Part shown: positions 4,731 through 8,618 of the stretch, one piece after another | How positions within the stretch are numbered: the first letter of the stretch is position 1 | Layout: each line of letters begins with the position of its first letter | Source: Deltaproteobacteria bacterium | GTDB taxonomy: Bacteria; UBA10199; DSSB01 | NCBI GenBank assembly: GCA_021414045.1 | Contig: JAIOPF010000251.1 | Location: 1 to 10,793, forward strand | Reading direction: 5' to 3' | Length of the DNA: 10,793 nucleotides | Notes under the pieces: generated by a model | Database searches by the model: none | Told to the model about the DNA's origin: nothing | What the model saw: the letters and a program-made list of their open reading frames with translations, nothing else | Made by a program: the position numbers and the translations under genes

Positions 4731-5243
4731 ATGGATCTGAAAAAAATCGTCCGCGACATCCCTGACTTTCCCAAGCCCGGCATCCTCTTCAAGGACATCA
4801 CGCCGCTCTTGCAGAACCCCCAGGCCTTCAAAGTGGTCATCGACAGTTTCGTGGCGCGCTACAAAGACAAGCCTATCGACGTCATCGTGGGCATCGAGTC
4901 GCGGGGGTTTCTGTTCGGTTCGGTTTTGGCTTACGTTTTGGGAAAAAGTTTCGCGATCATGCGGAAGAAGGGCAAGCTGCCCTACACGACGGTTTCCTAT
5001 ACCTACAAGCTGGAATACGGCGAGGATACCATCGAGCTTCATGAAGACGCGATTCCGAAAGGCGCTCGCGTGCTGATCGTCGACGACTTGCTCGCCACCG
5101 GAGGCACGGCTGCAGCCGCGGCTCACCTCGTTAAAAAAATGGGCGGGAAGGTCGAGGAAATGGCCTTCGTGATCGAGCTGGATTTTCTCCAAGGCAAGAA
5201 AGCCCTGGGGGATTCTCCGGCCTTCAGTCTCATCCATTATTGA
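4731..5243 (+). CDS. apt: Adenine phosphoribosyltransferase
   Basis: A 170-aa type I phosphoribosyltransferase that converts adenine and PRPP to AMP in purine salvage. The opening IRDIP-like VRDIPDFPKPGILFKDITPLL (7-27) is an Apt hallmark. ESRGF lies at 56-60, RKKGKLP at 78-84 and the PRPP-binding loop RVLIVDDLLATGGTAA at 113-128. Length matches the family. CAGGAG at 4719-4724 is a well-placed Shine-Dalgarno. It is the last gene of the surE-pcm-M23-apt run, 32 nt after the M23 gene. Its 3' end converges on the minus-strand phosphatase remnant with only 22 nt between stop codons and no clean terminator. Confidence 0.96.
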   Translation: MDLKKIVRDIPDFPKPGILFKDITPLLQNPQAFKVVIDSFVARYKDKPIDVIVGIESRGFLFGSVLAYVLGKSFAIMRKKGKLPYTTVSYTYKLEYGEDTIELHEDAIPKGARVLIVDDLLATGGTAAAAAHLVKKMGGKVEEMAFVIELDFLQGKKALGDSPAFSLIHY

Positions 5244-5265
5244 TCAAGACAAGCGAATCCAGGGG

Positions 5266-6979
5266 TTATTTTCCGGCCAAGGCCGCGTTGATGATCTTGC
5301 CGACGTCGGTGTTGTCGATGAATCCGCGCACGCGGTCGGCATAGGCCGAGGGCCCGGTGGCGAGGATCATGACCGGCGTCGAGGTCGGCGTTCCGGAGGC
5401 CCAGACCGCGCTGGTCTGCGTGGCCGTAGCGCGGCCCAGCAAATTCGCGTGGACGTTCTCGCCGACGTAGAACTGCGAGAAATCCTGGGTCGTCGCGTTG
5501 TCCGAACCCGGGGCGCGATCGAGGATGGTCTTGGCCTGGTTCAGGTTCAGCTTGAGGGTGGTGTTCGTTTGCACGTCGTCGACCAGCATTTGGCCGGCTT
5601 CGTTCAAGTTCACCGTGGAACCCTGGGCGTAGAGCTTGTCCACGACTTCCTTCGTCATCAGATAGAAGCTCTTCCTTTGATCGATTAAGGCGTCATATCG
5701 GATCGTCGGAGCATAATCGTAAGGCGCATTGTACTCGTCTCCGCTCGGTAGCGTCAGGTCGTTGCCCTTGCCCTTGCTGTAGGCGAAGCCGAAACCGCCG
5801 GTCTCGTGGTCGGAGGTCACGATGACGAGGGTGTCGCTATGCGCGTCGGCATAGGCGAGGGCGGCGGTGATCGCGGCGTCGAAATCCAGGCCTTCCTGAA
5901 GCAGGGTGCCGGGATCGTTTTCTTGGGCGACTTGCGAGGTCATTCCACCTTGGACGACGAGTAGGAAGCCGTTCGGTTTCTTGTCCAAGACCTCGATGGC
6001 CTTGCTGGTCAGGTCGGCCAGCGAGGGCAGTGCGCTCAGGGACTTGCGGTCCGGCGAGCGCGGGAAAGTCGAGGCGGAGAAGATTCCCAAAAGCTTGGTG
6101 TCGGCGGCGGAAGCGATGGCGCTAAGTTGATCGCCCTTGCAGACGAATTGGTAGCCCTTGCTCTTGGTGTTCTCGATCAAATTGCTTTGGTCCGCGCGTT
6201 GGCTGGCGCCGTCCAGGGCGGCGTCGATGCCGCTGCATTCCGAAACGTCGCTCAACTTCATTGCGTTTGGATTGGCGCTGGGGGTCGCGGTCGGGAGAAT
6301 AGGACCGAAGACGCCCGGATTGATGTCGATGGCGCGGTCGGGAATGGCGGTGATGACGCCGCTTCTCGCGATATCGGCGCTGGTCAGCATCGCGGTGGAC
6401 TTGTTTTGCGGGATCAAATTCTGGGCGCCTCCGGCGAGCAGGACGTCGACCTTGGGATCTTCGAAGATCTTCGCGGCGATCTCGTTCTCTTGCTCGCTGT
6501 CGAGGGAGTGGGTGAGATAAGGGGCCACGCCGGGGCCGCTGACGCGTGCGTTGGAAACCACGCCGGTTCCCTTGCCTTGGGCTTGGGCCTTCTCGAGGAT
6601 GTTCACGCAGGGATGGCCGTTGGCGTCGAGACACACCGGGTTGTTGCGGGCCTTGAGGCCGCAGGCGATGGACCACTTCGCCGATCTGCTGTGGGCCCAT
6701 GCCGCTTCCGACCAGGAGGATGACGTTCTTTACCGAGCTGGTCGAGGTCGGCGGCGTCACCGGTCCTGGGGTGTTCTCACTGGGAGGAGGATTTGAAGTA
6801 TCGGGATTGCCGCCCGTGTCGACCGGAGTTCCTTCATCGGTCGAGGCGCTGTCCGCCGCGGCTGGACCGTTGTCGCAGCCGGCTAGGCCGGAGAAGAAGG
6901 TGAAGCTGACCACGGAAAAAGCCAGGATCAAGATATTCAGCGTCGATTGGGATCGGAACAATGCGCGAACCTTCGTCAT
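5266..6979 (-). pseudogene. Alkaline-phosphatase-like lipoprotein, frameshifted and catalytically degenerate
   Basis: The 5' part (6979 to ~6660) encodes a lipoprotein signal with the lipobox LAGC (C35), then a Pro/Ser/Thr-rich linker (36-83) and the phosphatase start KNVILLVGSGMGPQQIG (84-100). The homologous frame then shifts: GLKARNNPVCLDANG and the rest continue in another frame down to the TAA at 5266. The whole span is 1714 nt, one more than a multiple of three. About 45 residues expected between GMG and the GLKA block, including the nucleophile motif DSAAS, are absent. Compared with E. coli PhoA, several ligands are replaced: D51 to S (GSGMG), D153 and T155 to G, E322 to Q, D327 to S, H331 to Q (VQGGMTSQVAQEND) and H412 to P. 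Only TSDHETGG (D369, H370) remains. AGGAG at 6985-6989 supports the start. It may be a pseudoenzyme lineage, a decaying gene, or partly an assembly error. Confidence 0.75.
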
Positions 6980-7051
6980 ATATTCTCCTAAGTGGGCCCT
7001 AGAGTCTTGGGATTCGGGTATTGATCGGCTGCTTTTACGGGATGTTGTGTC

Positions 7052-7240
7052 ATCGCTTGGTGAATTTTTGGTGAATTCGGGGCTGGGACCTGCTTCTCCG
7101 CTCCTGGGGGCCCCTCCTCCGAAGCCGGAGGGGCCCCCAGGGCAAAACCCCCCATAATTATTAGAGGCTTTAGGGTGATGGGGGGTTTTGAAGTCGCTGC
7201 GAAGCAGGTCCCAGCCCCGAATTCACCAAAAATTGGCGAT
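7052..7240. repeat. Large nested palindrome, three-way-junction (T-shaped) element
   Basis: The outer arms 7063-7096 and 7201-7234 are perfect reverse complements over 34 bp. Beyond them ATCGC (7052-7056) pairs with GCGAT (7236-7240) across an asymmetric gap. Inside lie two independent perfect stems. The first is CCTGGGGGCCCCTCC (7103-7117) with 7127-7141, 15 bp with a 9-nt loop. The second is CAAAACCCCCCAT (7143-7155) with 7178-7190, 13 bp with a 22-nt loop. Folded, the DNA or RNA would be a long stem topped by two hairpins. It sits between the small exported-protein gene and the phosphatase remnant, both on the minus strand. The ~190-bp size and long terminal inverted repeats fit a MITE-like element, but no target duplication or transposase is visible. 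Confidence 0.85.
7057..7078 (+). repeat. Tandem 11-bp direct repeat at the left edge of the palindrome
   Basis: TTGGTGAATTT (7057-7067) is followed directly by TTGGTGAATTC (7068-7078), 10 of 11 identical. The corresponding right side of the palindrome lacks the second unit's worth of pairing, which explains the asymmetric gap before the ATCGC/GCGAT pairing. Confidence 0.7.
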
Positions 7241-7256
7241 TTTAGGGTGGTGGGGG
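7241..7256 (+). repeat. G-rich direct repeat related to 7169-7184
   Basis: TTTAGGGTGGTGGGGG at 7241-7256 matches TTTAGGGTGATGGGGG at 7169-7184 in 15 of 16 positions. One copy lies inside the loop and arm of the second hairpin of the palindrome, the other just outside the element. The outer copy continues into CGGGG, making a G-tract-rich stretch. Confidence 0.6.
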
Positions 7257-7290
7257 CGGGGAATTCTTTTGTAAGTGCTTGAATTTTATT

Positions 7291-7611
7291 TTATTTTTTA
7301 TCGCTGGGCTCGCCGGTGAAGAAGCCTTTGACGGCTCCGCCGGCTTTTTTGAAGGCGTGCCCTGTGGCTTTTCCGCCTTTCACGATCCCGTGTCCGGCGG
7401 CTTGAAAACCCTTTTCCATTTCGCTGCCGGCTGTCTTGAAGCCGCGTCCTACCACATAAATGCCGCCTTTTTGGCCGCTGTGGCTGCCGATGGGTTTTTC
7501 TTCTTTGGCGTCTTGCTCCGCCTTCTCGTCAGCATGCGCGATGCCAAGGATCTGGAGGTGAGCCAGGGTGAAAGAGAGCAGGATGGCGAATAAGAGGCTG
7601 AGGCGTTTCAT
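7291..7611 (-). CDS. Small exported protein with 11-residue repeats
   Basis: I do not recognise a family. The chosen ATG at 7609-7611 has a GGAAGGA Shine-Dalgarno 6 nt upstream; a longer reading from a GTG at 7650 has no such support. The 106-aa product begins with a clear signal peptide (MKRLSLLFAILLSFTL...) with a likely signal peptidase I site after AHA (A27). The mature part is ~79 residues, glycine- and lysine-rich. From residue 56 it shows an 11-residue period: RGFKTAGSEME, KGFQAAGHGIV, KGGKATGHAFK, KAGGAVKGFFT. Such 11-mers form amphipathic helices in LEA-type proteins and synucleins, so surface or membrane binding is possible (inference). It starts 35 nt after the MBL gene stop and is probably co-transcribed with it. 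Confidence 0.75.
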   Translation of the reverse strand: MKRLSLLFAILLSFTLAHLQILGIAHADEKAEQDAKEEKPIGSHSGQKGGIYVVGRGFKTAGSEMEKGFQAAGHGIVKGGKATGHAFKKAGGAVKGFFTGEPSDKK

Positions 7612-7646
7612 AGGCATTCCTTCCGACGGGGTGAGCGGGGGAAAGG

Positions 7647-8618
7647 TCACAATTTTTTTGAGACGAGCTTTTGAACCTTCTCCAAGGCTCTTGAATCATG
7701 AATCGGGACCAATGTCACCTCATTGCTGTGAGCGATGAGCTCGGCCAATTTGAGCCGAGTGAGGCGGGCTTGGGTTTTGTCAAAATCCGAAGTCCATTCG
7801 GCCACCGGGGAACGGGCTTCGGGCTGGCCTCTCTCGTCCACTGTCCAGAGGGCGTCGCCGACGAAGAGAATACGTTGCCCGTCGGGAAGATTGGCAAAGA
7901 CTCCCAGAGACCCGGGAGTATGGCCCGCCAAAGAAACCAGGACGATGGATCCGTCACCGAAGAGGTCCAGGCTTTGAGAAAAGTTTTCATAAGGTTCGTT
8001 TTTGAGTTGGATGGGAACCAGGCGGTGTTTCAGCGCGGAAATTTGCTCGGGAAAGACTCCGTGGCGGAAGGGGTCTTCGGGTATTTCGGAAAATTCCTTC
8101 TCGGCCGCCAACATTCGGACGGGGATGTCGGGAAAATCCAAGGCGCCGCCCAGATGGTCGAAATGGGCGTGGCTGATCAGGAAGAAGTCGCGCTTGGGAT
8201 CCAGGATGGGGAATGCGGCTTGTTTTGCCAGAGGCATGGTTGGGAAAAACGTCAGCGGGTCCAAGAGACGGTGATCCCAGGAGGCCCGCGCCACTTGCTC
8301 GGAAAAATGCATTCCCAAACCCGAGTCGAGGACGATATTGCCCTTAGGATGACGTATCAAAACGACGCTGTGAGTGAGGCGCTCTTTTTCCAGTAGTTCG
8401 CCACCGCGGCGCACGTAGGCCTCGGGCGCGGTCGAATAGCCCGTCTCGAAGACTTGCAACTGCAGCGTCGGGAGATTCTTCATGGAAGCACGAGCGGCGA
8501 AATGCGAAGCGTGCAGTGCGGGATCGCGCACGGGATATTTGAGGGCCAAGATCAGTCCGAGAACGGCCAGTAAAAAAAAGGTGACTCCAACCAACAGTAC
8601 CTTTTTCAGAAATCGCAT
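7647..8618 (-). CDS. Membrane-anchored metallo-beta-lactamase-fold hydrolase
   Basis: A 323-aa protein starting at the ATG 8616-8618 (MRFLKKVLLVG), 5 nt after the DUF309 stop; a longer upstream reading overlaps that gene and lacks support. Residues ~5-26 form one transmembrane or uncleaved signal helix, placing the domain outside the cytoplasmic membrane. The MBL fold shows all metal motifs: SHAHFDHLGG (H150, H152, D154, H155), LAGHTPGS (H233), VGDALW (D255) and PIHD (H307). The layout LIRHPKGNIVLDSGLG, then HxHxDH, then HTPGS resembles the AHL-lactonase/glyoxalase-II-like branch. The substrate cannot be told from sequence; a lactonase or thioesterase activity is possible. Translation is probably coupled to the upstream DUF309 gene. 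Confidence 0.88.
   Translation of the reverse strand: MRFLKKVLLVGVTFFLLAVLGLILALKYPVRDPALHASHFAARASMKNLPTLQLQVFETGYSTAPEAYVRRGGELLEKERLTHSVVLIRHPKGNIVLDSGLGMHFSEQVARASWDHRLLDPLTFFPTMPLAKQAAFPILDPKRDFFLISHAHFDHLGGALDFPDIPVRMLAAEKEFSEIPEDPFRHGVFPEQISALKHRLVPIQLKNEPYENFSQSLDLFGDGSIVLVSLAGHTPGSLGVFANLPDGQRILFVGDALWTVDERGQPEARSPVAEWTSDFDKTQARLTRLKLAELIAHSNEVTLVPIHDSRALEKVQKLVSKKL

Follow-up and report, generated by a model that had tools for sequence, protein, structure and literature searches.

The nested palindrome at 7063–7234 of the window (the whole 10,793-nucleotide stretch of DNA analysed here) is one copy of a dispersed non-coding repeat family. Modelling of the aligned copies shows that one strand alone can adopt a three-way junction, with the loops of P2 and P3 predicted to kiss. 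The family adds a shape-conserved, sequence-drifting type to the miniature repeats of bacteria. An inverted-repeat search of the window finds three arm pairs, P1, P2 and P3, nested in an intergenic gap and listed here on the + strand, the one whose loops match the family:

7063..7234, + strand: the element, a P1–P2–P3 three-way junction
7063..7101, + strand: P1 5′ arm, 39 nt, 95% paired (37 of 39 pairs Watson–Crick)
7196..7234, + strand: P1 3′ arm, pairing with 7063–7101
7103..7141, + strand: P2 hairpin, 15 bp, 100% paired, arms 7103–7117 and 7127–7141, loop TCCGAAGCC at 7118–7126
7122..7126, + strand: putative kissing half in the P2 loop, AAGCC (69 of 79 distinct copies used)
7143..7190, + strand: P3 hairpin, 13 bp, 100% paired, arms 7143–7155 and 7178–7190
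7159–7179, + strand: conserved P3 loop stretch TATTAGAGGCTTTAGGGTGAT
7166..7170, + strand: putative kissing half in the P3 loop, GGCTT, pairing with AAGCC of the P2 loop

The longest perfect run of P1 is 34 bp (7063–7096/7201–7234), which together with the perfect 15- and 13-bp stems confirms the nested palindrome described in a first-pass annotation of this DNA. That annotation held that such stems could not arise by chance, and the shuffles agree: in 6901–7400 the longest perfect inverted repeat is 34, against a maximum of 12 in 60 dinucleotide shuffles. RNA folding of 7050–7245, which it had proposed for both strands, is strong on each, at −136.4 kcal/mol (+) and −131.8 kcal/mol (−), with z of −13.9 and −13.8, and none of 200 shuffles folds as well. 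Of its outer limits, 7052–7240, the palindrome itself stands; the ends are soft, and the supported element spans about 7063–7234. Near these limits lies a direct repeat, TTGGTGAATT, at 7057–7066 and 7068–7077, with only weak outer pairing. The copy is internal on its contig, with genes on either side, and has the terminal inverted repeats, non-coding character and multiple copies by which a MITE is recognised. The region 6850–7450 contains no terminator-like and no sigma-70-like promoter site, and nothing in Rfam overlaps the window element at E ≤ 1. Just outside the element, ATTGGCGATTTTAGGGTGGTGGGGG at 7232–7256 is 80% identical to the P3 loop and arm at 7160–7184 and may be left over from another copy.

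Related copies exist in the window's own genome and in its relatives, as a search suggested by the first-pass annotation establishes, though not at the level of plain BLAST. BLAST gives no convincing second copy in the window's own genome (G000) and repeated matches at the P3 loop in G004, a genome of the same taxonomic family, at loci with the same architecture and different stems. The loop pattern, allowing two mismatches, has 26 matches in 4 of the 46 genomes of the class, and the reversed-pattern control has none. R1, a covariance model of the P2–P3 core built from 16 copies, finds at E ≤ 0.01 at least 82 copies in 5 of the 46 genomes: at least 8 in G000, 22 in G001, 10 in G002, 20 in G004 and 22 in G008, all lower bounds set by Infernal's stricter filters and by at most 86 candidates scored per genome. 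Carrier G008 belongs to a taxonomic family other than that of the window. Among the up to 86 candidates scored in each of the other 41 genomes, three of the window's own family included, no R1 copy was reported; the phylum-level set consists of the same 46 genomes. Near-identical copies occur at differing sites, and complete units measured from P1 to P1 span 140–182 bp.

A pattern of the type seen in G000, G001, G002 and G004, which fits neither the window copy itself nor the G008 type, has good matches among 84,980 GTDB r220 species genomes only in JADYZQ01, ‘Deltaproteobacteria bacterium SJ577’. Two contigs of this assembly are 100% identical to G002 loci (JADYZQ01 is G002) and score well with R1; the other 9 of the 11 contig matches, with a best R1 score of 11.6 bits, were rejected as copies. 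The phage, plasmid and viral collections gave no match with the queries used, and neither the window nor six further loci matched an Rfam family at gathering score. The strongest sub-gathering match, to MIR918 on locus L038 (84.9 bits against a cut-off of 268), is a long-hairpin match and was rejected as an identity. We found no description of this repeat family in the open-access literature.

The stems covary across the family. The R1 alignment of 85 matches, fitted to the structure, has 79 distinct rows, in which 96.4% of the 1,596 cells of P2 and P3 are standard pairs. Double-change cells number 503 against a shuffled mean of 127, and the covariation score is 0.782, compared with 0.188 for shuffled alignments and at most 0.240 for slid structures, counts that kinship among the copies inflates. 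RNAalifold on a MAFFT alignment of 16 copies also shows double changes, in 18 of 26 pairs. The covariation test proposed in the first-pass annotation is answered by compensatory changes in the stems, orthologous copies included. Stem columns average a 66% majority, and bases are most constant at the 3′ junction and within the P3 loop (A.GC...AAGG.G).

The kissing loop between P2 and P3 is a feature absent from that annotation. The last five bases of the P2 loop (NNGCC) pair with GGCNN of the P3 loop, and 295 of 345 cells are Watson–Crick in 69 of the 79 distinct rows (10 were left out for a long insert, gap or cut-off), against a mean of 229 and a maximum of 250 in 2,000 shuffles, a count likewise inflated by kinship. 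With the register shifted by one or two bases, only 106/345 and 35/345 cells pair. Six fully complementary combinations occur (AAGCC/GGCTT, CTGCC/GGCAG, AGGCC/GGCCT, CGGCC/GGCCG, TGGCC/GGCCA and TTGCC/GGCAA); among single types, AAGCC with TGCTT is the most frequent (15 copies) and pairs at 4 of 5 positions.

Where selection acts on a stem as the RNA of one strand, G–U should be tolerated and A–C should not. The repeat stems show no such preference: P2 and P3 depart from standard pairs with 19 G–U and 20 A–C in 1,596 cells, and P1 with 21 G–U and 35 A–C in 2,189, counted in 70 of 73 copies (three are too short) with some P1 alignments extending into the flank. Excluding interrupted or cut-off copies leaves 11 G–U and 17 A–C of 1,415 (P2 and P3) and 19 and 32 of 2,067 (P1); the contigs of loci L095 and L097 lack the native 5′ arm. 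R1 was trained on copies poor in both G–U and A–C mismatches. A control of 39 tRNAs from four of these genomes (G002 not included), drawn from 30 loci among the 147 matches listed (25+45+40+37 per genome), has 22 G–U and 0 A–C in 663 cells, the zero being partly selection because tRNA finders themselves favour paired stems. With G–U as scarce as A–C, the pairing therefore looks to be kept at the DNA level, whether by hairpins that single-stranded DNA forms or by switching of the template from arm to arm. Template switching homogenises arms, can invert spacers and makes double changes in one step (PMC8604942, PMC8794818). Its intrastrand form is said to favour 5′G–C3′ and 5′U–A3′ pairs (PMC8794818); the asymmetry expected from that account is absent here (549 C–G, 348 A–T, 314 T–A and 308 G–C, C–G being the commonest), which counts against template switching in this family. 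Functional RNA is usually considered proven by covariation. Here overwhelming covariation accompanies a balance of G–U and A–C that speaks for DNA, so the family lets one gauge, in a natural setting, to what extent DNA hairpins or template switching can imitate selection on RNA.

Orthologous copies show the same paired drift. Nine comparisons contain 78 double Watson–Crick changes, 7 changes to G–U and 42 broken or gapped cells, the last including alignment shifts, and the trio L085, L082 and L102 supplies three of the comparisons. The counts (double/to G–U/broken) are 21/2/3 for L069/L065, 12/0/5 for L064/L079 and 8/1/6 for L074/L066; L093 and L091 show no changes, being identical over 168 aligned positions with flanks that differ by 10–11%. 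Copies thus persist across species and their stems change in step, and since many copies are orthologous between species, movement is not frequent. At three orthologous gaps the copies lie in opposite orientation (L075/L096, L062 versus L065/L069, and L053/L103); because the subfamilies differ there, flipping is no likelier than separate insertion. An 89% identical stretch beside L103/L053, considered as an insertion sequence, is an ordinary gene, presumably fusA.

Presence and absence at orthologous sites includes the window copy itself:

5249..7278, no strand: about 2.03 kb with the alkaline phosphatase gene and the element, absent between the same two neighbours in G001, G002 and G004

In these genomes the phosphoribosyltransferase gene (window 4731–5243) and the gene at 7291–7650 lie 110, 114 and 188 bp apart, respectively, with no R1 match in the gaps; that of G004 holds another palindrome. 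Other empty sites are G003:C277 (against L070), G000:C80 (against L071) and G000:C282 (against L092). Of the empty-site check proposed in the first-pass annotation, the presence and absence hold; the relatives are 64–77% identical near the empty sites, too diverged to place the exact junction or to show a target duplication. The alkaline phosphatase gene (window 5266–6979, with PF00245 in the downstream piece) seems to be split by a frameshift near 6640–6680. A host origin of P1, by insertion into existing palindromes, is unlikely in G000, G001, G002 and G004, where element-like sequence lies outside the variable P1 in most copies (TGCC at one flank and TACC or TCGTGC at the opposite one); the case is less clear in G008, and in the window copy these flanks have no clear form.

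Some units are compound. Two copies of the element (A) form inverted pairs, 3′ to 3′, at six loci (L047, L087, L094, L100, L117 and L127), among which L087/L100 and L127/L094 are orthologous. A second multi-branched palindrome, B, has a 35-bp perfect outer stem in L063 (1180–1445, − strand) and ends like those of the element (TTTCTGCCC ... TACC..TGC). Full-direction matches to B number at least 16 in G004, 7 in G001 and 2 in G002, with none in G000; these are lower bounds, 16 of 55 candidates having been scored in G004. Wherever A and B are neighbours within 500 bp, B is inverted on the 3′ side of A (13 of 13, 10 in G004 and 3 in G001). At five G004 loci (L068, L052, L054, L056 and L078) the A–B spacer harbours a palindrome of the TCATCCTGAGCG...GAAGGATCT type.

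The P2 loop also receives a guest. A 1,216-bp insertion sequence (L206:2107–3322; G001:C86:20106–21321) with an intact-looking 324-aa IS110-family transposase frame (PF01548, PF02371) splits it in G001, where 4 left (...CT|TGTATC) and 5 right (GGTATCT|CAGG) junctions fall at a single position in that loop, which means that five or more copies are interrupted (junction loci L205, L207, L208, L094, L095, L097 and L105). The isolated 5′ arms and unusual contig ends of G001, suspected as assembly chimeras, are largely halves of copies split by this insert. IS110-family elements target REP palindromes (PMC11208160), and the present family behaves towards IS110 as REPs do; the IS110-family element is a guest and not evidence of the mover.

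From the fold and the family we infer mobility, a recogniser and the kind of nucleic acid that folds in the cell. On balance we lean towards a miniature mobile repeat of REPIN-like kind, whose single strand is recognised once folded and whose stems are made perfect again by template switching. An enzyme acting in trans would move or copy the units, recognising the folded strand, most plausibly single-stranded DNA, by its shape and conserved loop bases. At the DNA level, pairing of the stems would be upheld largely through template switching from one arm to the other during replication. Some units are inverted pairs, either of two A copies or of A and palindrome B, and the P2 loop serves as a landing site for the IS110-family element, as in REP repeats. 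The first-pass annotation had likened the palindrome to non-autonomous mobile elements and to hairpin replication ends; related copies, presence/absence sites and compensatory stem changes support the former part. Tentatively, the family may be a mobile element identified by its folded single-strand shape (three-way junction and kissing loops) rather than by end sequence, moved by an enzyme not yet tied to such repeats and maintained by template switching. What the recogniser then reads would be the shape plus some dozen bases of the loops and junction, and about 60 stem pairs would be free to drift together. R1 offers a model for seeking it.

The repeat works most like a REPIN without being a member of the REP/REPIN class on size, tag or Y1 linkage. 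The likeness to REPs and REPINs lies in small, intergenic, palindromic, dispersed and persistent units, inverted pairs and an IS110 landing site (PMC3116915, PMC8049555, PMC8266576, PMC3733652, PMC11208160); the repeat shows both of the last, with its six A–A loci, single A–B arrangement and P2-loop junctions in G001. A REP/REPIN hairpin is 20–40 bp and tagged GTAG (or CGTC), whereas the unit here is 140–182 bp, larger than a REP and three-armed, with a kissing loop. A CTAC/GTAG-like end occurs only in some subfamilies, as CTACC just outside P1 in G004 and some G000, G001 and G002 copies, with TCGTGC in others. As for the RAYT/Y1 transposase (TnpA-REP) that flanks REPs, Y1_Tnp is present in 38 of the 46 genomes, but in the fragmented assemblies of the five carriers 0 of 7 matches shares a contig with an R1 match, G002 having none; with no association with element contigs, Y1_Tnp was provisionally rejected as the mobiliser, and no other mobilising enzyme came to light. 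ERIC, NEMIS/Correia and RUP are non-coding intergenic palindromes of 100–200 bp, apparently non-autonomous, that keep their stem sequences. The repeat resembles such ERIC- or MITE-like elements as an apparently non-autonomous miniature intergenic palindrome, but here the stem sequence drifts and the loops are conserved, and no parent transposon came to light in these analyses. We know of no kissing-loop three-way junction described for IS200/IS605 ends or integron attC sites. The repeat is comparable to these in that their folded single-stranded DNA is read largely by shape (PMC6006769). The IS110-family element in the P2 loop, with CT at both junctions, parallels IS621 in REP (PMC11208160); here the palindrome is the target and not the insertion sequence.

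A dispersed structured non-coding RNA or 3′-UTR structure, with the kissing three-way junction as a functional fold for which copies are kept, is the main alternative, though a rather doubtful one. Kissing-loop covariation and loop conservation suit it, since the kissing loop could equally be an RNA feature, as do the fold kept in orthologous copies and the identity of L093 and L091 between diverged flanks; but G–U is no commoner than A–C, unlike in the tRNA control, no Rfam family reaches gathering score in the window and six other loci, the window copy has no promoter-like or terminator-like site, and position relative to gene starts is inconsistent in noisy ORF calls. HEARO is a multi-copy structured RNA, dispersed and sometimes present in many copies; the repeat is likewise structured and dispersed, and differs in having no Rfam match and no RNA-type G–U tolerance. 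The same scarcity of G–U, with the paired stems and a documented mechanism (PMC8604942, PMC8794818), would suit a passive palindrome with no recogniser, its stems arising and persisting through template switching alone. We regard this as unlikely because switching alone predicts no loop conservation, loop covariation or dispersed near-identical copies, and here the loop and junction bases are the most conserved, the loops covary and near-identical copies lie at different sites.

A bidirectional transcription terminator or mRNA-end stabiliser, for which we see very little probability, could draw on gene context: among 67 copies with two called neighbours, the ORFs are convergent at 27, divergent at 14 and in the same direction at 26 (from a tally of 74 copies by a crude ORF caller, which misassigned the window copy's left neighbour). 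Yet the window copy has no T-tract, as the first-pass annotation recognised in calling it no standard Rho-independent terminator, a terminator-like hairpin with a T-run already stands ahead of the element in L071, and the conserved loops are left unexplained. Least probable by far are two readings raised in that annotation: that the palindrome is an assembly artefact, or that it is the hairpin replication end of a viral genome or linear replicon. The T-shaped geometry recalls such ends, and many copies sit at contig ends, so assembly does break at them. Both are countered by five genomes, each assembled on its own, that carry at least 82 copies with covarying stems, most of them lying between called ORFs on chromosomal contigs. 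Nor did any of the queries tried against viral, phage and plasmid collections produce a match.

Smaller inserts and fragments accompany some copies. A REP-like palindromic insert (AAGCCCGAACTTGCTTCGGG) lies inside the P2 loop in L071 (1580–1650), in L109 and at the start of G001:C8 (L209), and fragments of this insert turn up at many sites across G000, G001 and G004; L056 and L126 carry other P2 inserts. Adjoining the element in L071, positions 1300–1500 hold more arm-like pieces (GGTAGATCCCTTG..., GGTAGATTCCTTGG...), perhaps remnants of other copies.
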